DNA of 64,000 bases from Flavobacterium fragile (GTDB taxonomy: Bacteria; Bacteroidota; Bacteroidia; Flavobacteriales; Flavobacteriaceae), in the NCBI RefSeq assembly GCF_023634865.1, contig NZ_JAMLJN010000006.1, positions 62,001 through 126,000 on the forward strand. The letters are read 5' to 3'. The translations under genes were made by a program, and so were the position numbers. Positions 52,094 to 63,351 of this stretch are shown piece after piece (the stretch's first letter is position 1; the number at the start of each line of letters is the position of its first letter). The notes beneath the pieces are model-generated. The model worked only from the letters and a program-made list of their open reading frames with translations. It was not told where the DNA came from and did not search any database.

Positions 52094-52975
52094 TTAGAAA
52101 GAGAATTTCAAATAGAATTCATTTGAGCCATTTGCTCTTCCTAAAAGTTCTTTTCTTAAGCTATATTCATAGGCATAACCTAACATGAAATTTTTACTGA
52201 TTTTAATTTTAGCTAGACCAGCAAGCGATTTATCAGTACGATAGGTTGCACCTAAATGAAATCCTTCGTTAATTATCGTTGTAGCAGTAAAATCTGTTGA
52301 AAAAGGAGCACCATTTACATAACGTACCATTACAGAAGGAACCAACTCAACGTTTCCACTAATATCAAAGTTATAACCTCCAGAAAAGTAGTAGTGTACA
52401 CGATCTGTTGACACAGTTGCATATCCATCTTCATTTTTAGCTCTTTCTGTATTTAGCATTTTTGGAGTAGAAAGTGATACATAAAACTTATCATGTTTCA
52501 GGTAGAAACCAACTCCCACATTTGGGTTAAAACGGGAGATAGGTACTAAGCTCGGATCACTAATAATGTTATAAGTCTCTAATCCATTCGTATTAACTTC
52601 ATAGTTATTACCACCGGCTTTAATTCCCATGAATAAATCTAATTCATCTGTTAAAGTAACATTGTAGGATAAGTCTAATGTTACAAAAGATTGTTTTTCA
52701 ATGAATACTTTGTCGTGAACAAAAGATAAACCAAGTGCTAATTTTTTACCTACAGGAGTCATAAATGATACCGCCTGAGTTGAAGGAGCATCCTTGATAC
52801 CGGTCCATTGTTGTCTGATAGTTGATTGAAAAATGGTTCCATTTTCGGTTCCAACAAAAGCTGGATTTACTAAATTTAAGTGATCTTTATAGAAAGTAAT
52901 CATACTTTCTTGTTGAGCTAATAGGCTACTGCTTGTAGCAAGCAGTAGTCCTAATAGAATGATTGTTTTTTTCAT
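52094..52975 (-). CDS. T9SS-associated outer membrane protein, PorP/SprF family
   Basis: The 293-residue protein has a signal peptide ending in LLAQ and the PorP/SprF pattern: QESMITFYKDHLNLVNPAFVGTENG, RQQWTGIKDAPSTQAVSF and beta strands ending in a Phe (YLKFSF), as in outer-membrane barrels. SprF of Flavobacterium johnsoniae is needed for secretion of the adhesin SprB encoded next to it, so this protein is probably the dedicated partner of the giant adhesin. Its start lies 30 bp after the adhesin stop and a terminator follows it. Confidence 0.92.
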   Translation of the reverse strand: MKKTIILLGLLLATSSSLLAQQESMITFYKDHLNLVNPAFVGTENGTIFQSTIRQQWTGIKDAPSTQAVSFMTPVGKKLALGLSFVHDKVFIEKQSFVTLDLSYNVTLTDELDLFMGIKAGGNNYEVNTNGLETYNIISDPSLVPISRFNPNVGVGFYLKHDKFYVSLSTPKMLNTERAKNEDGYATVSTDRVHYYFSGGYNFDISGNVELVPSVMVRYVNGAPFSTDFTATTIINEGFHLGATYRTDKSLAGLAKIKISKNFMLGYAYEYSLRKELLGRANGSNEFYLKFSF

Positions 52976-53005: not shown

Positions 53006-56000
53006 TTAGTTTCTTGAGATGTATAACCAACCATCATGGTCTACAGTTCCATTGCCATCTAAATCGATTTGATAGTAATATGAACCTCCATCAGGAAGTG
53101 ATTGTTCACGGTTTTTATAATATCCGTTCCATTCGTTACGGTATCCTCTAGCACTAAATACTAAGTCACCCCAACGATTATAAACTTTAACTGTATTATT
53201 TGGATGATTTTCGATATTGTAAATGATCCAAGTATCATTAATACCATCTCCGTTTGGAGTAATAGCCTCAGAAGGATTGATTTCTACTATATCACAAACA
53301 TCACCAATTCCATCGTTGTCTCTATCTTCTTGTAATGGGTTATATCCAAATTGACAGTTGTCTTGTAAGTCTAAAATACCATCATTGTCGTCATCATCAT
53401 CACAAGCATTTCCAATTCCGTCTTCATCAAAGTCTGCTTGATCCGGGTTAAATTGTAACGGACAATTATCGTTTTCATCTAAAATACCATCATTGTCATC
53501 GTCATCGTCACAATTATTTTTGATTCCATCGAAATCCGTGTCGATATCATTAGAAACAACATTTACAATAGCTGTTGCACTAGAAGTGTTTCCACTATAA
53601 TCTGTAACTGTTAAAATAACTGAATTTGGACCTAAATCATCACAATTGAAGTTAACAATATTTACGGAAATCGATGCAATTGCACAGTTATCAGTAGAGT
53701 TATTGTTAATCATATCAGCTGTAATACTTGCCATTCCTTGATCGTCTAAAACAATGGTAATATTTTGAACATTTGCGATTGGAGCTACAGGGTCAACAAC
53801 AGTTACTATTGCTGTTGCAGATGCTGAATTTCCATATATGTCTGTTGCTGTCAATGTAACAGTGTTTGGTCCTACATTTTGACAAGTGAATGTAGTAGGA
53901 TTTGCTACTATTGTTGCTAGAGCACAATTATCAAAAGTACCATTGTTAATGTCACTAGCCACTATTGTAGCTACCCCATTACCATTAAGTTGAACAGTTA
54001 TGTTTCGTGTTATTACTGTTGGAGGTGTTACATCTGTTACCGTTACTACTTGAGTAGCTGTAGCTATGTTACCTGAACCATCTATTACTGTCCAAGTTAC
54101 AGTTGTAGATCCAATAGGAAAAGCAACAGGTGCATTATTAGTTACAGAGGCTACTGAACAGTTATCCATTGCAACAGGATTTCCTAAAACTAAACCAGTT
54201 CTTGTACAATTGGTATTTGTTGTAGTATTGATTGCAATCGGTGCCACAATTGTTGGAGCTTGTGTATCCAGAATTGTTACAATTTGAGTGGCAGTAGCTG
54301 TATTTCCTGCAGCATCCGTTACAGTCCAGGTTACTGTTGTATTTCCTAATGGGAAGGCAAACGGAGCATTGTTAGTTACAGATGCAACCGTACAGTTGTC
54401 TGCGGTCATAGGATTACCTAAAGCTACGTTAAGTGCATAACAATCATTATTAGTTGAAGTAATAACATTGTTAGGAGCAGTTATTGTAGGTAAAGTAGTA
54501 TCGATTACAGTTACTAATTGAGTAGCAGTAGCTACGTTACCAGAACCATCCGTTACAGTCCAAGTCACAGTAGTAGTTCCAATAGGGAATGTAGCTGGAG
54601 CATCATTAGTTACACTTGCTACTGAACAGTTGTCAGCAGTTACTGGATTTCCTAGATTTACTCCCGTTGCTGTACATGTTGCATTAGCATTTACATTCAC
54701 TGCAGCAGGTGCTGTGATTGTTGGTAAGGTAGCATCTGTTACCGTTATCACTTGAGTAGCAGTAGCTGTGTTACCAGAACCGTCTACTACAGTCCAAGTT
54801 ACAGTTGTAGTACCTAATGGGAATGCTGCCGGCGCGTCGTTAGTTACGCTTGCTACCGAACAGTTATCAGAAGCTACTGGGTTACCTAATACCAATCCCG
54901 TTCTTGTACAACCTGTATTAGTGGTTGTATTTATAGCAATAGGAGCTACGATAGTAGGTAATTGCGTGTCAATTACAGTTACCACTTGAGTAGCAGTAGC
55001 TATATTACCAGAACCGTCTACAATAGTCCACGTTACAGTTGTAGCACCAAATGGGAATGTTGCTGGAGCATCATTAGTTATACTAGCTACCGAACAGTTG
55101 TCTGCCGTTACTGGAGTTCCAAGTGTTACATTCACTGCGAAGCATCCATTATTTGTTGAAACAGTTACTGCAGCAGGTGCTGTAATTGTTGGATTTGTTA
55201 CATCTGTTACCGTTACAATTTGAGTAGCTGTAGCTGTGTTTCCAGATCCATCTACAACTGTCCAAGTTACGGTTGTAGCACCTAATGGGAATGTTGCAGG
55301 AGCATTGTTTGTTACGCTTGCTACTGAACAGTTGTCAGCAGTTACAGGAGTTCCAAGAGTTACTCCAGTTGCTGTACAAGCTGTATTTGTCGTTACATTC
55401 ACTGCAGCAGGAGCTGTAATTGTTGGTAATGTTACATCTGTTACGGTTACTACTTGCGTAGCTGTAGCTGTGTTACCAGAACCATCTACTACTGTCCAAG
55501 TTACAGTTGTAGTGCCTAATGGGAAAGCAGAAGGAGCATCATTAGTTACTGAAGCTAACGAACAATTATCCGTTGCAACTGGATTTCCTAAAACTAAACC
55601 GGTTCTTGTACAGTTGGTATTAGTTGTAGTGTTTATTGCGATTGGTGCCACAATTGATGGAGCTTGTGTATCTACAATTGTTACAATTTGAGTTGTAGTA
55701 GCTGTATTTCCTGCACCATCCGTTACAGTCCAAGTTACTGTTGTATTTCCTAATGGGAACGTACTAGGTGCATTGTTAGTTACAGAAGTAATTGTACAAT
55801 TATCCGCTGTTATTGGAGTACCTAAAGCAACATTAACAGCATAACAACCATTGTTCGTTGAAGCAGTTACATTAGTAGGAGCTGTAATAGTTGGTAAAGT
55901 AGTATCCACAACGGTTACTGTTTGAGTAGCAGAAGCTTTGTTTCCAGAACCATCCGTTACAGTCCATGTTATTGTAGTAATTCCTAATGGGAACGTTGCT

Positions 56001-59000
56001 GGAGCATTATTTGTTATTGTTGCTACCGAACAATTATCAGCAATTACAGGAGTTCCTAAAGAAACACTAGTTGCTGTACAGTTAGCAGAAGCATTAACAA
56101 TAATATTTGCAGGTGCAACAATTGTTGGTAAAATAATATCAGTTACCGTTACTTGTTGTGTAGCAGTAGTAATATTTCCAGAACCGTCAGTTGCTGTCCA
56201 AGTCACCGTTGTTGTTCCCAATGGGAAGGCTGTGGGAGCATTATTAGTTACAGATAAAATCGAACAATTATCAGTAACAACTGGATTTCCTAAAACTAAA
56301 CCAGTTCTAGTACAATTGGTATTAGTTGTAGTATTAATTGCTATTGGAGCTATTAAATAAGGTGGTATAATATCTACAATTGTAACAACTTGATTTGCAG
56401 AGGCGGTGTTACCAGCCGTATCTGTTACTGTCCAAGTTACAGTAGTATTTCCAAGTGGGAAAAGATACGGTGCGTTATTTGTGATGCTTGCGATAGAGCA
56501 ATTGTCATTAACAACAGGCGAACCTAATAACACATTTACTCCATAACATCCCATGTTGGTTGGCCAAGTTGTTGAGATTGGAGCAGTTATAGTTGGTAAA
56601 ATAGTATCCACAACGGTTACAGTTTGAGTAGCAGAAGCTTTGTTACCAGAAGCATCTGTTACTGTCCAAGTTACTGTAGTAGTTCCAATAGGGAACGTTG
56701 CTGGAGCATTATTTGTTACTGTTGCTACCGAACAATTATCGGAAGTTACTGGTGTACCTAGATTTAAGCCAGTTACACTACATCCACTAGTTAAATTGTG
56801 AACAATATCTGCAGGTGCTGAGATTGTTGGTAATGTTACATCTGTTACGGTTACTACTTGCGTAGCCGTAGCTGTGTTACCAGAACCGTCTACTACTGTC
56901 CAAGTTACGGTTGTAGTTCCTAATGGGAAGGCAATAGGAGCATCGTTAGTTACAGAGGTAACCGAACAGTTGTCACTAGTTACAGGATTTCCTAATACTA
57001 ATCCCGTTCTTGTACAATTGGTATTAGTAGTGGTATTGATTGCCATCGGAGCTACGATAGTAGGAAGTTGCGTATCTATTACAGTTACTACCTGAGTTGC
57101 TGTTTCTGTATTACCAGAAGCATCTGTTACTGTCCAAGTTATAGTAGTATTTCCAAGAGGGAAAGTAGTAGGTGCATTATTAGTAACGCTCGTTACCGAA
57201 CAGTTGTCCGCTGTTACTGGAGTTCCTAAAGCCACATTAAGTGCATAGCAACCGTTATTAGTAGATGTAATTACGTTAGCAGGAGCTGTAATTGTGGGGT
57301 TTTCAGTATCGTTGACAGTTACTGTAAAAGAACACGATGAGGTATTTCCTGAAGCATCAGTTACTTTAAAAGTGTTTGTAGTATTTCCTATTGGGAATAA
57401 TGAACCAGAAGGAAGTCCAGCGATTTGAACAGGTGTAGGTAATGCATTGCCAACTAATACAAATGATACATTATCTACTCCTAGAGCACCAGGGCCGGTA
57501 TAAGTTTCAGGAATGTAAGCCTCAAACCTTAGATTTAAAGTACTGCCTTCGTGATTAGATAATACACTTAGAGCATTAATATTTTTGGTAGTCCAATCAT
57601 AGTATGTAAATCCATTTACAAATTCCTCTGTGTATAATGTGGCAAGTAACGTTGTGTTAGTGGCATCGTATAGGGTTACATTGAACCTACGATTTGCACC
57701 CCCATATATATCAACACTTGCTGCTTGAATCCACGAAAGGTCGGCACTAATCAGTCCTATTGGAACATTTAAAGGCTGACTCATTATGTAAGTGGTCGGT
57801 CCGTCTCCATCAATAGCTGTAGAGGCAAAGTTAGAACCAGATGAACTTTGTAAACAATTACAAGGACAAATGTTAGTTGTTGCCATCCATACTTGGCTAC
57901 AACCCGAATTACTTCCATTACCTGAATCAATTGTCCATCCAGTCATTCCATTTTCAAAATCTCCATTTATAATGACATCAGAACTTGAAGGGACACTACA
58001 GTTATCGTTTACTATTGGGTTACTGTAATTAACAACAGCTCCACAAGAATTTAGATTATTAGAAACTGTAAGGTCAGACGGACAATTTATTGTCGGAGCA
58101 ATACTGTCAACTACTGTTACAGTAGCTGTTCCTGTATTATTATTTCCTGAAGTATCTGTAACAGTAAGGGTTACCGTATTTGCACCTAAATCATCACAAG
58201 TGAACGAATTTGGAGCCACACTCATGCTTGCTATTTGTACATTATCTGTAGATCCATTATTAACTTGGTTTGCTGTAATACTTGCTAAACCATTGCTGTC
58301 TAAGTTGATGGTTATATTTTGAGTATTAACAGTAGGGTTTACATTATCAATTATTGTAACTTGTACAACAGTATAATGTGAGTTGCCTGATGAATCTGTT
58401 ATTACTAAAATTACATTGTTTACCCCAATATTAGCTGGTCCAAATGTATTTGGAGATGCAGTTAGTGTATAATCACAATTGTCATAAGAACCATTGTCGA
58501 TTAACGCTGGGTCTAAAATTAATTGACCATCTGCATTTAAAGATACAGTTATGTTTTGGCCAATAGCCACAGGGTTAATGTTATCTAGAACAGTAACTGT
58601 AACGTTTTGAGTAACTGTATTTCCGTTATTATCTACTACGGTATATACAACTGAATTGTTCCCTAAGTGTGAGCAATCAAAATTTACTTGACTTAAAGTC
58701 ATTGAAGCAATTCCACAATTATCGAAACTACCATTATCAATATCACTTGTTGAAATACTAGCTGTTCCAGAAGCGTTTAATTGTATGGTAATATTTTGTG
58801 TAAATAATACAGTAGGATTAATATTGTCTTCAACCGTTACTATTGCTGTATTTGAGCTTGAGTTCCCTTTAACATCTGTAACAGTTAATGTTACCGTATT
58901 ATCACCTACATTTGAACAATTGAAACTAATAGTATTTAAAGTAATAGTGTCAATATCACAATTATCAGAAGAACCGTTATCAATCATTCCAGTAGTAATA

Positions 59001-62000
59001 TTTGCATTACCATTAGAATCAAGTTGTATAGTAACGTTTTGAGTTACAACAGTAGGAGCTACTGTGTCGTCAATTGTTACAGTGAAACTTTCAGAAACTG
59101 ATAATCCTTCTTGATCTTCTACTACAATTGTTATAGTAGTTGTTCCAAATTGACCCGTAACAGGGGTTAAGGAAATCTCTTTTGTAGCGCCACTTCCCGT
59201 AATCGTAATTTGATTATTAGGGACTAATGTTGTATTTGAAGAAGTTGCTGTAACTGAAATGTTAGCAAAAGGTGTTGTATCGTCGCTGATTGTAAAAGAT
59301 TGAGCAGGAGTTGTTTGATTGAAACAACTATTAAAATTATCAATGGTAGTTACAGTAGGTGGTAAGTTTAATATTCGAGTTAAACAACTCTCTAATAGTC
59401 TTACAGCTTGTGTATTTACAGCACCACCAGTGGCAGCTGTAAATCCAAAATAAGCATTTTCATTTCCACTAAAGATATTGTTAACAATATCAATTGTTTG
59501 GTTGTATCTTAAACTTCCATCGTAGTAAACTTTTAAATTATTGGTACTAGCAGTCCAACTAACTTCAAAATCATGCCATGCATTATCTTCAATATTTCCA
59601 AGATCAATAGGGCTAGTATGATTAGTGGTATTTCCGTTAGTCATAATTGCCATGTGGTCATTTGAGTAAGGGTCGCCAGGGCTATTGAAATATGTATCAA
59701 ATTCAATAGCAAGAGAAGGGTTAATACCTGAATATCCAATACCTCCACCTGCAGAACCTTCGTTACTACTTAGAGGTTGAATTACAAATGCTAAACCATC
59801 AGCACCAGCGTCATTGTTACCGAAGTATAATTGTGATTTTACTCTAAAATCTTTAGTTAAATCCAAACGGTCAGTACTCCATAATGCACCAAATTGGTAT
59901 CCAGAAGCAGTTGTTAAAGTTACATCTCCTCCAGATATTGTAGCATTTCCTCTTAAAATCATGTCATTAGCATTAAAGCCATAACAAGTTAAAGCGTTTA
60001 ATTCAATAGTAGTAGTATCATTACAAGAACCATTTGTTCCTGTAATGGTATAAGTAGTATTACTAAAACCATCTGCAGGAGTTCCTGAAATTACTCCGGT
60101 ACTAGGATTAATTGATAATCCTAATGGTAGTGTAGGTGCAATTGTCCAAGCTGTTACTGGTCCACCTGAATTTGAAGGAGTTAGAGGAGATATTGCATTT
60201 CCTGAGTATAAAGTGTAAGCACTTTGTGAATATGAAATATTCGGGTTCGGAATTGCTGTAATTGTAAATACGTGAGCAATTTGACAACCATTGGCATCTG
60301 TAGCAGTAACTGTGTAAGTACCTGCAGTTAATCCAGAAGCTGCTGCTGCAGTGCCTCCTGAAGGAGACCATGAATAAGTATATCCACCAGCACCACCCGA
60401 AATAGAAACAGAGGCAGTAGCATTATTAGCTCCAGGACATGATTCTTGAGTTTGTGAATTTGAAGCCACCACTAATGCAGTTGGTTGTGTTACAACAAAA
60501 CTTTGAGAAGCAGTACATCCATTGGCATCTGTTACCGTACATGTCCAAGTTCCAGCTGTTAATCCTGATACTGAAGTTGTACCATCTCCAGTAGGGTTTC
60601 CAGGTGTCCAATTATAAGTATATCCACCCGAACCTCCTGTTGCTGCATTTACACTAGCTGCACCTGTTGCATTGCCATTACATGCGATGTTTGTTTGTGA
60701 GGCTGCAGTTAGTGCTAAAGCACTAGATGGTTGTGTTATTGTAAAAGTTCTAGACGCAGTACAACCATTAGCATCGGTAACCGTACAAGTCCATGTACCA
60801 GCTGTCAAACCAGTTACAGACGTTGTGCCATCTCCAGTAGGGTTTCCAGGTGTCCAATTGTAAGTATATCCGCCAGCTCCGCCAGTTGCAGCACTTACAC
60901 TAGCAGCACCTGTGGCATTTCCAAAACACGCAATATTGGTTTGTGAAGCAGCATTGAGCACAAGTGTTGTTAAATGAGTAATTGTAAAAGTTCTTGTAGC
61001 TGTTCCACCCGATGGATCAACTACTGTGATCGTAATTGTAGTTGTTCCTGTTTGACCTGAAGCGAAAGTATAACTTAATGTCCTTGCTGCTGTAGTACCC
61101 CCTAAAACTAAATTTGCATTTGGTAATAAAGTCGTATTACTTGAAGTTGCAGTAACAGTCATTAAAGTTAAGTCTGTTGTTTCTGCATCTCCAATAGTAA
61201 AGTTTATTGTAGCAGGAGTAGCAGCTTGACAAACTGTTTGATTTGTAATTGAACTAATTGTTGGATTTGTATTTATTGTTAATACAGGTTCGGTTGTTGA
61301 AACACCTGATGATCCATCAAAAGTACATCGTCCAACAGGTTGACCTGTAGAGGGGTTTACAAATTCTAAAGTGTAGTTACCTGCGTTAGGTAAATTAACA
61401 TTGTAAAAACAATAGGTTACTAAATAATCTCCACCACTCGTAGTTGTAACGGATGGAGGGCCAGCTTGAACTGTACTTAGTACTCCATCAATCCAAATTC
61501 TGTTGATAGCAGGAATAATTCCCGGTAAAGATGTAGGGGTATATTTGAATTGAATATTTCCTGTTTTTGAAGTCACTGGAACATTGGCATATATTGTGCT
61601 AGTAACACTTGGATTAGTTGGTGTGCCACTTACCCCGGGACATAAATTGGCTTGTCCATTTCCATTACTTCTTTGGTTAATAGTAGCGCAAGTGTACAAT
61701 GTTGTGAAATTTGAAGACGTTACTGCAGAATTAACAACATTGTTGTTAGTGTCAGTATATTGAGTAACAAAATAAACCGTATAATTTGTTAAAGGTGATA
61801 AACCTGTTAAAGGAAATGGAGATGTGGCTCCTGCTGATAAAACTTGGTTTCCACTATTAACAACTGTTCCCCCAGTATAAGAAGTGCCTGTCATAATTTG
61901 CGTTGCTGTTGGAGCTGTAGATCCTTGAGGAACAACTATAAAATATCCTGTCGCATTAACGCTCGAGTTAGCATTTAAGGTTGCAGAATTTGAAGTAATG

Positions 62001-62902
62001 TTTTGTACACTACTACTTGCATCGGCAACTGCTGCTACTACATCAGCTAATTCATTCAATGAAGCTGCAGCATAATACCAGTTGAAAGTATCTGACGCAC
62101 CCACTGCTAAATCGTTCATACGAACGTACATGCTGTATGAACCATCATTAGTTGCTTCGATTACTGCAGTCGCTGGGTTGACATTTGTTGCATTTGTGAA
62201 ACTACAACAGCCAGCATGAACGTTGTTACCTCTGTTTGAATTTGTAAAGAACATTACCCCCTCGTCGCCTGTTTTAATCATTAAGGCTGCTGCACGTTGT
62301 GAAGCTGCAGTTAAAGGAGTGAATACTCCATTTACAATATTCCCTCTCGTTTTGGTTGGGACGTCAGTACCTCCCACATAATCATCTCTAGTACCAATCC
62401 AAAAACGAAGGTTAGTTACATTTGAAGATCCAATGTTTTTGATTGTAGTAACCACAGAAACAAAGTTGTCTGTTTGTCCAGTTGTATAAGTGTTAGTTAG
62501 TTCAAATGTTGCGGAACCTATTGTAATGGTTCCCTTAACTTTTATAGTTCCATAACCTGTAGAACCAGAGGTAATAATAAACCCACTATCGTCAAATACT
62601 TGCCCTGTCATTATAGGGTTTTGTGTCATAGTTCCGTTAAGATTCCATTCTGACGTGCCATCACCACCTTGTCCAAACATATAATCTAGGGGATAATTAG
62701 AAAAAGTTAATTGACGCCATCCACCGTAAGTGTTGTTGTAATAAAAGGGTTGTTGTACGTTACCCGTATTATTAATTGATAGTTCTATACCATTACCAAA
62801 TCGTAAATCACCTGAGTTGATTGTTTTGTTGGTTCCTGTAAATTGTCCGTATGAAAAAAAGGAAATTAACAGTCCGATCCAAATAAGTAAATTTTTTTTC
62901 AT
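53006..62902 (-). CDS. Giant T9SS-secreted repeat adhesin with gliding-motility-type C-terminal domain
   Basis: The 3298-residue surface protein begins with a signal peptide (FFSYGQ). Domains in order: unknown beta domain (20-290), fibronectin-like region (about 295-400), cadherin/Ig-like (550-640), three SprB-type repeats (about 645-885, LNAASQTNIACFGN), a putative-Ig domain (890-965), an L-type-lectin-like domain (about 973-1175, LAIEFDTYFNSPGDPYSNDH), four DNGS-type repeats (about 1283-1600), an HYR domain split by a 185-residue insert (1602-1867), fourteen HYR repeats (1868-2959), two more DNGS-type repeats, calcium-binding thrombospondin-3 repeats (3120-3204, DDDDDNDGILD) and a type B T9SS sorting domain (ITPNGDGINDTW to the end). 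It likely mediates adhesion to glycans or gliding. Confidence 0.95.
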   Translation of the reverse strand: MKKNLLIWIGLLISFFSYGQFTGTNKTINSGDLRFGNGIELSINNTGNVQQPFYYNNTYGGWRQLTFSNYPLDYMFGQGGDGTSEWNLNGTMTQNPIMTGQVFDDSGFIITSGSTGYGTIKVKGTITIGSATFELTNTYTTGQTDNFVSVVTTIKNIGSSNVTNLRFWIGTRDDYVGGTDVPTKTRGNIVNGVFTPLTAASQRAAALMIKTGDEGVMFFTNSNRGNNVHAGCCSFTNATNVNPATAVIEATNDGSYSMYVRMNDLAVGASDTFNWYYAAASLNELADVVAAVADASSSVQNITSNSATLNANSSVNATGYFIVVPQGSTAPTATQIMTGTSYTGGTVVNSGNQVLSAGATSPFPLTGLSPLTNYTVYFVTQYTDTNNNVVNSAVTSSNFTTLYTCATINQRSNGNGQANLCPGVSGTPTNPSVTSTIYANVPVTSKTGNIQFKYTPTSLPGIIPAINRIWIDGVLSTVQAGPPSVTTTSGGDYLVTYCFYNVNLPNAGNYTLEFVNPSTGQPVGRCTFDGSSGVSTTEPVLTINTNPTISSITNQTVCQAATPATINFTIGDAETTDLTLMTVTATSSNTTLLPNANLVLGGTTAARTLSYTFASGQTGTTTITITVVDPSGGTATRTFTITHLTTLVLNAASQTNIACFGNATGAASVSAATGGAGGYTYNWTPGNPTGDGTTSVTGLTAGTWTCTVTDANGCTASRTFTITQPSSALALTAASQTNIACNGNATGAASVNAATGGSGGYTYNWTPGNPTGDGTTSVSGLTAGTWTCTVTDANGCTASQSFVVTQPTALVVASNSQTQESCPGANNATASVSISGGAGGYTYSWSPSGGTAAAASGLTAGTYTVTATDANGCQIAHVFTITAIPNPNISYSQSAYTLYSGNAISPLTPSNSGGPVTAWTIAPTLPLGLSINPSTGVISGTPADGFSNTTYTITGTNGSCNDTTTIELNALTCYGFNANDMILRGNATISGGDVTLTTASGYQFGALWSTDRLDLTKDFRVKSQLYFGNNDAGADGLAFVIQPLSSNEGSAGGGIGYSGINPSLAIEFDTYFNSPGDPYSNDHMAIMTNGNTTNHTSPIDLGNIEDNAWHDFEVSWTASTNNLKVYYDGSLRYNQTIDIVNNIFSGNENAYFGFTAATGGAVNTQAVRLLESCLTRILNLPPTVTTIDNFNSCFNQTTPAQSFTISDDTTPFANISVTATSSNTTLVPNNQITITGSGATKEISLTPVTGQFGTTTITIVVEDQEGLSVSESFTVTIDDTVAPTVVTQNVTIQLDSNGNANITTGMIDNGSSDNCDIDTITLNTISFNCSNVGDNTVTLTVTDVKGNSSSNTAIVTVEDNINPTVLFTQNITIQLNASGTASISTSDIDNGSFDNCGIASMTLSQVNFDCSHLGNNSVVYTVVDNNGNTVTQNVTVTVLDNINPVAIGQNITVSLNADGQLILDPALIDNGSYDNCDYTLTASPNTFGPANIGVNNVILVITDSSGNSHYTVVQVTIIDNVNPTVNTQNITINLDSNGLASITANQVNNGSTDNVQIASMSVAPNSFTCDDLGANTVTLTVTDTSGNNNTGTATVTVVDSIAPTINCPSDLTVSNNLNSCGAVVNYSNPIVNDNCSVPSSSDVIINGDFENGMTGWTIDSGNGSNSGCSQVWMATTNICPCNCLQSSSGSNFASTAIDGDGPTTYIMSQPLNVPIGLISADLSWIQAASVDIYGGANRRFNVTLYDATNTTLLATLYTEEFVNGFTYYDWTTKNINALSVLSNHEGSTLNLRFEAYIPETYTGPGALGVDNVSFVLVGNALPTPVQIAGLPSGSLFPIGNTTNTFKVTDASGNTSSCSFTVTVNDTENPTITAPANVITSTNNGCYALNVALGTPVTADNCSVTSVTNNAPTTFPLGNTTITWTVTDASGNTETATQVVTVIDTQLPTIVAPMAINTTTNTNCTRTGLVLGNPVTSDNCSVTSVTNDAPIAFPLGTTTVTWTVVDGSGNTATATQVVTVTDVTLPTISAPADIVHNLTSGCSVTGLNLGTPVTSDNCSVATVTNNAPATFPIGTTTVTWTVTDASGNKASATQTVTVVDTILPTITAPISTTWPTNMGCYGVNVLLGSPVVNDNCSIASITNNAPYLFPLGNTTVTWTVTDTAGNTASANQVVTIVDIIPPYLIAPIAINTTTNTNCTRTGLVLGNPVVTDNCSILSVTNNAPTAFPLGTTTVTWTATDGSGNITTATQQVTVTDIILPTIVAPANIIVNASANCTATSVSLGTPVIADNCSVATITNNAPATFPLGITTITWTVTDGSGNKASATQTVTVVDTTLPTITAPTNVTASTNNGCYAVNVALGTPITADNCTITSVTNNAPSTFPLGNTTVTWTVTDGAGNTATTTQIVTIVDTQAPSIVAPIAINTTTNTNCTRTGLVLGNPVATDNCSLASVTNDAPSAFPLGTTTVTWTVVDGSGNTATATQVVTVTDVTLPTITAPAAVNVTTNTACTATGVTLGTPVTADNCSVASVTNNAPATFPLGATTVTWTVVDGSGNTATATQIVTVTDVTNPTITAPAAVTVSTNNGCFAVNVTLGTPVTADNCSVASITNDAPATFPFGATTVTWTIVDGSGNIATATQVVTVIDTQLPTIVAPIAINTTTNTGCTRTGLVLGNPVASDNCSVASVTNDAPAAFPLGTTTVTWTVVDGSGNTATATQVITVTDATLPTITAPAAVNVNANATCTATGVNLGNPVTADNCSVASVTNDAPATFPIGTTTVTWTVTDGSGNVATATQLVTVIDTTLPTITAPNNVITSTNNDCYALNVALGNPMTADNCTVASVTNNAPFAFPLGNTTVTWTVTDAAGNTATATQIVTILDTQAPTIVAPIAINTTTNTNCTRTGLVLGNPVAMDNCSVASVTNNAPVAFPIGSTTVTWTVIDGSGNIATATQVVTVTDVTPPTVITRNITVQLNGNGVATIVASDINNGTFDNCALATIVANPTTFTCQNVGPNTVTLTATDIYGNSASATAIVTVVDPVAPIANVQNITIVLDDQGMASITADMINNNSTDNCAIASISVNIVNFNCDDLGPNSVILTVTDYSGNTSSATAIVNVVSNDIDTDFDGIKNNCDDDDDNDGILDENDNCPLQFNPDQADFDEDGIGNACDDDDDNDGILDLQDNCQFGYNPLQEDRDNDGIGDVCDIVEINPSEAITPNGDGINDTWIIYNIENHPNNTVKVYNRWGDLVFSARGYRNEWNGYYKNREQSLPDGGSYYYQIDLDGNGTVDHDGWLYISRN
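54026..57301 (-). repeat. Array of 14 HYR repeats, 234 bp each, in a 702-bp A-B-C higher-order unit
   Basis: Within the adhesin gene, 14 modules of exactly 78 codons follow one another without indels (14 x 234 = 3276 bp). Three module types alternate A-B-C four times, then A-B. The B marker (CTRTGLVLGNP) has its codons at 54177, 54879, 55581, 56283 and 56985, each 702 bp apart. Every module carries two cysteines near positions 18 and 34. Confidence 0.92.
60250..60970 (-). repeat. Three SprB-type repeats, the first two 246 bp apart
   Basis: The phrase encoding TPGNPTGDGTTSV recurs at 60595 and 60841, exactly 82 codons apart, and the third copy is diverged (QTQESCPGANNATASVSISG). The repeats belong to the adhesin gene. 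Confidence 0.75.
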
Positions 62903-62904
62903 GT

Positions 62905-63351
62905 TTAATTATGAGTTAATTTCCAATTTTCTTTTTCTAATACAAAAGTATAAGATAATTTTTGGGTTTCGTTTTCTGATTTCGTCACATAGAATTCATA
63001 TAATGCTTTAGTTGATGTGACGTCCATTCTCCAAAAAAGTATTAGATTTGATTCAAATAAATTGAATGCATTTTTGTCCATAGCTTCAAAAGAATATCCA
63101 TTAGTTTTCATTTTGAAGTCCACTAATTCTTGAAAATTGTTTAGAATGGCAACTTGTTTTTTTGAAAAATAATTGTTAGCAATAAGATCATTGAAGATCA
63201 TTCTTAAATGTGTTTTTGTTACATAATCTATAGAATTATTATTTTGTAATTTATTTAAATGTGTAGAGTCATTTTTCATTTTGGTGTTTGAATCTTGTGA
63301 TGACAGATTTAGAGAAAAAAATAATAGAAGAATAATTTTAAGTTTAGTCAT
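62905..63351 (-). CDS. Small secreted protein preceding the giant adhesin
   Basis: The 148-residue protein has a signal peptide (IILLLFFSLNLSSQ, cleavage before DSN) and a charged, mixed helical/strand mature part ending in a compact YEFYVTKSENETQKLSYTFV segment. No family is recognised. Its stop codon is two bases before the adhesin start, so it is the first gene of a three-gene operon with the adhesin and porP/sprF. It may be an assembly or chaperone factor for the adhesin; only position supports that. Confidence 0.72.
   Translation of the reverse strand: MTKLKIILLLFFSLNLSSQDSNTKMKNDSTHLNKLQNNNSIDYVTKTHLRMIFNDLIANNYFSKKQVAILNNFQELVDFKMKTNGYSFEAMDKNAFNLFESNLILFWRMDVTSTKALYEFYVTKSENETQKLSYTFVLEKENWKLTHN

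Follow-up and report, generated by a model that had tools for sequence, protein, structure and literature searches.

Domain repeats mostly expand by several domains at once, often in the middle of the array and with unit sizes that are typical of the family, such as the seven domains of nebulin (Bjorklund et al. 2006, PMC1553488), and the block-wise growth of repeat proteins is as such already known. Periscope Proteins, on the other hand, combine a variable length with highly similar adjacent domains, whereas large proteins usually have neighbouring domains that differ from each other (Whelan et al. 2021, PMC8201768). The case considered here lies in a stretch of 64,000 nucleotides of Flavobacterium fragile (contig NZ_JAMLJN010000006.1, positions 62,001 to 126,000), hereafter the window. 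It is an array of 14 HYR modules of 78 codons each (54041-57316, minus strand) that follow one another in coding order as (A-B-C)x4, A-B within the open reading frame of a 3298-residue adhesin (53006-62902, minus strand). We consider it likely that these 14 modules form the rod-like stalk of a lectin adhesin secreted by the type IX secretion system (T9SS), and that this stalk is built from a 702-bp unit of three modules gained or lost as whole blocks.

With the multi-domain duplication units (PMC1553488), the array has in common a peak of autocorrelation at a fixed number of domains and block-wise copies, but it differs in that it belongs to a bacterial T9SS adhesin, has a unit of three HYR modules, keeps a phase common to several related species and has nearly saturated silent sites. 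As for the Periscope Proteins (PMC8201768; review PMC9704523), the likeness consists in a long stalk at the cell surface, made of folded domains in tandem, the number of which varies from one relative to another. However, while their adjacent domains are highly identical, neighbouring modules in the window are 56-82% identical (mean 0.64 for protein and 0.67 for DNA) with a peak at the third neighbour, and the length differences recorded here are between species. By neighbour identity, the array fits multi-domain duplication and not the Periscope type. Since the screen for Periscope Proteins sought long, highly identical repeats (PMC8201768), diverged higher-order arrays would probably escape a screen of that type. 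HycP of Clostridium cellulolyticum, with 23 HYR modules, likewise combines a long HYR run with a carbohydrate-binding domain in a protein that is secreted or surface-borne; the part of its description at hand mentions no higher-order arrangement (PMC3723904) and, unlike the window adhesin, HycP is not a T9SS protein. Finally, the gliding adhesin SprB of Flavobacterium johnsoniae (PMC12635249) is also a giant T9SS type B adhesin with a partner of the PorP/SprF family, and the SprB repeat family matches the window adhesin too. No paper on a three-module HYR arrangement was found in the open-licence PubMed Central literature as judged by title and start of abstract, which is weak evidence of absence.

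Order, length and types of the modules

An earlier note on this DNA had claimed fourteen consecutive modules of exactly 78 codons, free of indels and ordered A-B-C four times and then A-B. Module boundaries being arbitrary, that note placed the array at 54026-57301 instead of 54041-57316, and its claim is confirmed by the DNC anchors of modules 1-14, which lie exactly 78 residues apart with zero indels across 3276 bp, as well as by the identities between modules given below. Tandem Repeats Finder reports a period of 234 with 13.7 copies at 54032-57230. In coding order on the minus strand, the A type is represented by modules 1 (57083-57316), 4 (56381-56614), 7 (55679-55912), 10 (54977-55210) and 13 (54275-54508), the B type by modules 2 (56849-57082), 5 (56147-56380), 8 (55445-55678), 11 (54743-54976) and 14 (54041-54274, the last one before modules of 80 residues), and the C type by modules 3 (56615-56848), 6 (55913-56146), 9 (55211-55444) and 12 (54509-54742). 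The B marker, CTRTGLVLGNP, is identical in the five B copies and recurs at 702-bp steps, just as had been proposed, and the strict A pattern matched four of the five A copies. The C marker as first written proved loose, its four copies reading CSVTGLNLGTP, CTATSVSLGTP, CTATGVTLGTP and CTATGVNLGNP.

The mean protein identity between modules amounts to 0.75, 0.77, 0.76 and 0.82 at lags 3, 6, 9 and 12, respectively, compared to 0.60-0.65 at all other lags, and the DNA identity to 0.73-0.76 compared to 0.64-0.68. The array thereby displays the identity peak at a fixed module number above one that characterizes a higher-order domain repeat. When the module order was shuffled, the observed contrast was reached in 4 of 100,000 cases for protein and in 0 of 100,000 for DNA. 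Besides, 13 of the 14 modules have a module of their own type as closest match within the array, by DNA and by protein, module A10 being the exception. The longest exact direct repeat in the whole adhesin gene measures 44 bp and joins modules that are six apart.

The difference between types is concentrated in one part of the module: of the 16 columns with the greatest power to tell the types apart in the window, 14 fall in residues 10-32 of 78. More precisely, identity within and between types is of 0.73 versus 0.44 for residues 11-36, differs less for residues 1-10 (0.68 versus 0.54) and hardly at all for residues 37-78 (0.77-0.83 versus 0.73-0.81). Over residues 10-32, the within-type ratio of nonsynonymous to synonymous divergence (dN/dS), estimated by the Nei-Gojobori method from pooled pairs that are not independent of one another, amounts to 0.03 in B, 0.19 in A and 0.67 in C. 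In the light of this value of 0.03 at a dS of 1.07, that is, with nearly saturated silent sites, the B type is maintained by purifying selection rather than by recent copying, a statement that is limited to B and does not extend to C.

In terms of structure, four modules in the order A-B-C-A, modelled with AlphaFold2 from 12 aligned sequences, are predicted to consist of beta strands only (pLDDT 92.4, pTM 0.64), and each of modules 1 to 3 ends in the model with a long strand that extends into the first residues of the following module. The best Foldseek matches are extender domains of RTX adhesins and cadherin ectodomains, with TM-scores by query length of only 0.23-0.44 among the best 50 rows, and a sequence search of the PDB returned one marginal match (2kpn, E 0.0083). 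The model points to a stalk that is likely rod-shaped, in which it does not fix the relative orientation of the modules.

The register of three in related arrays

Relatives were searched in a collection holding one genome per species. A query of six modules, run against 398 genomes of the genus, had matches at E <= 1e-90 in 22 of them, a number that counts the window genome itself. Five of the 22 hold the adhesin gene or part of it (the own genome, G263, G187, G389 and G297), and the remaining ones were compared by their arrays only, except for G232, in which other parts of the gene matched weakly. G187 is taken as F. celericrescens TWA-26 (L032) and G389 as L030. By the parts outside the array, the close orthologues are those of G263, of F. 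celericrescens (L083 and L082), of L030 from a Flavobacteriaceae metagenome-assembled genome (MAG) and of L031 from a Flavobacteriales MAG, with identities, where the part is on the contig, of 73-91% for the lectin, 83-87% for the C-terminal domain and 78-83% for the adjacent PorP protein. G297 is more distant (65% for the C-terminal domain, 47% for PorP, and no lectin match at 1e-5).

The single-contig genome of G263 (3.06 Mb) has 39 modules, by position a C followed by (ABC)x12 and A-B, and L031 has six, C-A-B-C-A-B. The array of L030 ends at a contig end after 11 whole modules and that of F. celericrescens is broken between two contigs. The first module after the 80-residue ones stands at the C-position in L030, L082, G263 and L031; in the window, this position is taken by a different HYR module carrying an inserted domain. 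Counted from there, the complete arrays have 39, 6 and 15 modules (14 plus the replaced one), all multiples of three, a count that concerns three arrays only and follows from the phase at both ends.

Explicit traces of block-wise copying are found in two relatives. In G263, lags 3 and 1 differ both in DNA identity (0.971 versus 0.715) and in the longest exact run (1898 bp versus 52 bp), and dS is of 0.10 within types versus 0.80 between types. L029, which comes from a Vicingaceae MAG, likewise repeats clearly every three modules, its blocks being near-identical and its longest exact run measuring 965 bp at lag 3 versus 14 bp at lag 1. Such long in-register runs imply the duplication or homogenisation of stretches longer than one block, with a register of three.

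Whether the phase is common to several species was evaluated by labelling the modules back from the right end, the last being B, and by comparing each label with the type borne by the closest segment (residues 10-36) from other species. Labels and nearest segments agree for 14/14 modules of the window, 38/39 of G263, 6/6 of L083 and 4/6 of L031; over all the arrays compared, 75/96 agree, or 40/55 if identical segments in one array are counted once. With a profile derived from the window, the two modules that end the array ahead of the 80-residue ones are typed as A-B in 4/4 close orthologues whose right end is seen (the window itself, G263, L031 and L083). By segment likeness, the close orthologues thereby support a homology of the types, which G297 and L029 do not.

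For 61 distinct modules, taken from the window genome and its relatives, a maximum-likelihood tree was built over 78 columns; its resolution is weak, with good support for 15 of its 58 inner branches. A single branch (73/96) separates all A modules from the rest, whereas B requires four changes and C five. All labels taken jointly require five changes compared to 29.2 for shuffled labels, a value as low being reached in 0/200 shufflings. Thus, the clustering by type that the earlier note had expected of a module tree is found, and clustering of neighbours is not the general pattern, apart from A10 by whole-module identity. In addition, a variant with the motif WP.N.GC marks A module 4 in the window and one A module each in G263, L030 and F. 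celericrescens. This module seems to be orthologous in the four genomes (clade support 98/94), the window and L030 copies being only 0.66 identical.

The comparison with L030 also informs on the turnover of the array. Over 969 bp of the 80-residue block beside the array, the DNA of the window and that of L030 are 92.6% identical. Within the array, a stretch that starts with the final third of B8 and ends two thirds of the way through C12 (54587-55522, minus strand) has 12/12 tiles of 78 nt that are 82-97% identical to array modules of L030. Among the remaining 30 tiles, 24 reach 59-79%, five 81-86%, and one, at the end of B2, 97%. As whole modules, C9 (0.94), A10 (0.90), B11 (0.88), B2 (0.85) and C12 (0.82) stand above the other nine (0.66-0.79). 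Given this patchy identity, the window array is a mosaic, probably turned over by parts after its lineage split from that of L030.

Recombination, function and the origin of the alternation

Taken as a sequence of events, three neighbouring modules would have diverged until different types had about 65-75% of their DNA letters in common; thereafter, unequal homologous recombination would have paired same-type modules best, and the array would have gained or lost whole A-B-C blocks with their order preserved. Depending on the lineage, some blocks would have been homogenised, as in G263 and L029, while others would drift apart, as in the window genome. Crossing over in three-module steps is suggested because same types share long exact runs in the fresh arrays and different types short ones. 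The lectin-bearing head would be held off the cell by the HYR rod and, from the domain content, be anchored via the T9SS sorting domain and the PorP/SprF-type partner, the length of the rod being set by the number of A-B-C blocks. We infer both that recombination is the agent and that the reach of the stalk is what selection sees.

Several data weigh against this model or restrict it. In the window, same-type and different-type pairs hardly differ in dS (0.94 and 1.04, respectively), and the contrast between lags at third codon positions was reached by 3162 of 100,000 shuffles of the module order. Silent sites being nearly as diverged within types as between them, the duplications in the window genome are old, and block duplication leaves almost no silent-site trace in it. 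A10 as a whole is nearest to its neighbour C9 (DNA 0.79, protein 0.82) and A-like in the type segment: of its six tiles of 13 codons, five are 79-90% like C9, compared to 59% for codons 14-26, which lie in that segment. In L030, the longest exact run measures 82 bp at lag 3, compared to 64 bp at lag 1, 60 bp at lag 2 and 62 bp at lag 6, a slight preference for the third neighbour, so that a strong recombination register is not evident there. Besides, typing L030 without its right end gives CABCACCABCA, with 1/11 modules off phase, the six modules of L083 show a weak excess at lag 3 only, and the C modules of L031 are B-like, which indicates that types can be overwritten. Finally, the position labels agree with the nearest segment in only 6/14 modules of G297 and 7/17 of L029, near chance, and the window-built profile reads their penultimate module as A and the last one only as a weak c or a. 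The transfer of the A, B and C labels to these distant arrays was therefore abandoned, and a period of three is claimed for them, not common types. Motifs and the tree, in which A forms one group with L029 included, had first suggested shared types in the distant arrays, which the label test upheld only partly.

The growth by a three-module block put forward in the earlier note accordingly stands for G263 and L029, where it is explicit, and the phase is kept in arrays of 6, 14 and 39 modules; in the window, however, the duplications are old, the array is mosaic and A10 is nearest to C9. Block-wise growth of the stalk is thus supported mainly by the relatives, the window keeping the order with aged copies. 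The strict length control invoked at the same time holds inasmuch as 78 codons are constant in the array, but a constant length is common and found in many single-type HYR arrays too.

Other HYR arrays indicate how general a unit of three might be. Among 37 fetched loci plus the window, chosen by likeness to the window array, the window module profile gave 31 array rows (30 distinct, L084 repeating L030), 14 of which are single-type arrays with neighbours at least 90% identical; L090, from G232, has an independent three-module unit (0.77 at lag 3 versus 0.64-0.65). In a survey with the Pfam HYR profile, 95 of 249 genomes of the family had a match at E <= 1e-10. Long open frames were picked among the matches listed, and the 60 regions surrounding them yielded 29 runs of at least six whole modules, at least two genes having been fetched twice (L222 in L185, and one run of L206 in L198). 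With p values from 999 shuffles, uncorrected for the number of runs, units stand out in L180 (G696; three modules, p 0.001), L193 (G649; five, p 0.001) and L222/L185 (G710; two, p 0.015 and 0.035), while the other 25 of the 29 runs, among the regions taken from the matches listed, have no higher-order unit. Higher-order units are hence a recurrent minority in HYR proteins, and sizes other than three occur (2, 3 and 5). As a separate observation, module starts in G525 (C14, 349823-351559) alternate by 246 and 252 bp.

These arrays bear on the possibility that the A-B-C order is kept by function, through type-specific contacts such as one face shown at every third module of a twisting rod, so that selection and not a recombination register would hold the phase. 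Such a role, which we regard as possible but unlikely, would agree with the concentration of type-separating columns (14/16) in residues 10-32 and with the dN/dS of 0.03 of the B segment. G297 also speaks for it: in its 14 modules, picked as those preceding the C-terminal module of the 80-residue type, a period of three survives in the type segment alone (0.42 versus 0.31, reached in 4/20,000 shuffles), the rest of the module having none (3697/20,000). Nevertheless, constraint is weaker on the A segment (0.19) and on the C segment (0.67), C can turn B-like in L031, and HYR arrays with units of 2, 3, 5 or none, together with the 14/31 rows of near-identical neighbours, indicate that a three-fold geometry is not generally required. 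A twist of 120 degrees as structural reason for the number three was rejected as a general rule on the same survey and is kept only as part of this functional alternative. A related thought, that the three diverged types were themselves selected as a recombination register, allowing large exact length steps while near-identical domains never stand side by side, so that length variability and safe folding are both kept, is speculative and appears doubtful to us.

That single modules were duplicated and the alternation made later, by gene conversion at a distance of three, would account for the patchwork within modules, be it A10, like C9 except in one tile, or B2 and B8, whose final thirds match L030 modules at 97% identity. 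We hold it to be very improbable, as the in-register exact runs of up to 1898 bp in G263, more than two blocks, and of 965 bp in L029 need events of block length, and so does the phase common to the close orthologues. An assembly artefact, for its part, scarcely deserves credence: assemblies can fail in such arrays, as those contigs of F. celericrescens that break inside it illustrate, but in the window gene the longest exact direct repeat of 44 bp can be spanned by short reads and the array lies inside a 222-kb contig. The orthologous stalks, with their 6, 14 and 39 modules and a common register, range from newly amplified arrays to arrays close to saturation and represent a natural series in which one can directly ask whether sequence identity sets the length steps of an array and whether type identity is selected.

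Domain layout of the adhesin and neighbouring genes

From its N- to its C-terminus, the adhesin comprises SprB repeats, an L-type lectin domain, HYR/LapB-type modules of 80 residues, the 78-residue array, two further 80-residue modules, thrombospondin type 3 repeats and a T9SS type B sorting domain. Pfam matches are HYR (1.1e-101), Lectin_L-type (4.9e-46), CHU_C (1.4e-25) and TSP_3 (4.9e-12), to which TIGR04131 (5.8e-15) and the SprB repeat (6.4e-26) are added. The HYR profile (PF02494) scores 333.7 bits in 15 stretches, above the curated cut-off of 21.7, and the 15 HYR matches at E <= 0.001 across the 2.69-Mb genome all lie within this gene. On the minus strand, the lectin domain (residues 982-1169) is located at 59396-59959, the sorting domain at 53018-53272, the four 80-residue modules on the N-terminal side of the array at 58103-59065 (edges approximate) and the two that bound it on the C-terminal side at 53567-54040. 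In the SprB-repeat region, two tandem units of 246 bp (60506-60953, minus strand; 1.8 copies, 82% matches) are seen.

A domain of about 180 residues (57443-57982, minus strand) is inserted after the DNCSVP loop of the HYR module just before A1. It gives a weak hint of CBM_4_9 in Pfam, below the cut-off (E 0.085), and had no tblastn match at 1e-5 in the ten loci searched.

The next gene downstream (52094-52975, minus strand) encodes a PorP/SprF-family outer-membrane partner of 293 residues (TIGR03519, 7.4e-63; PF11751, 1.9e-62). A gene of this family also directly follows the sorting domain in G263, F. celericrescens, G297 and L031. With its C-terminal CHU_C/TIGR04131 sorting domain and this adjoining gene, the adhesin has the features of a T9SS type B surface protein. 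In contrast to SprF, for which a C-terminal C-x-C pair is reported (PMC12635249), no C-x-C pair was found in the 293 residues of the partner, which sets the adhesin apart from the SprB-type gliding adhesins; judged by this motif, it may not ride on the gliding track.

Directly upstream of the adhesin gene, a protein of 148 residues (62905-63351, minus strand), with no Pfam match at 0.01, is possibly encoded in the same operon. Finally, two open frames run antisense within the array on the plus strand, at 55236-55691 (151 residues) and 55938-56360 (140 residues), and are probably by-products of its composition.

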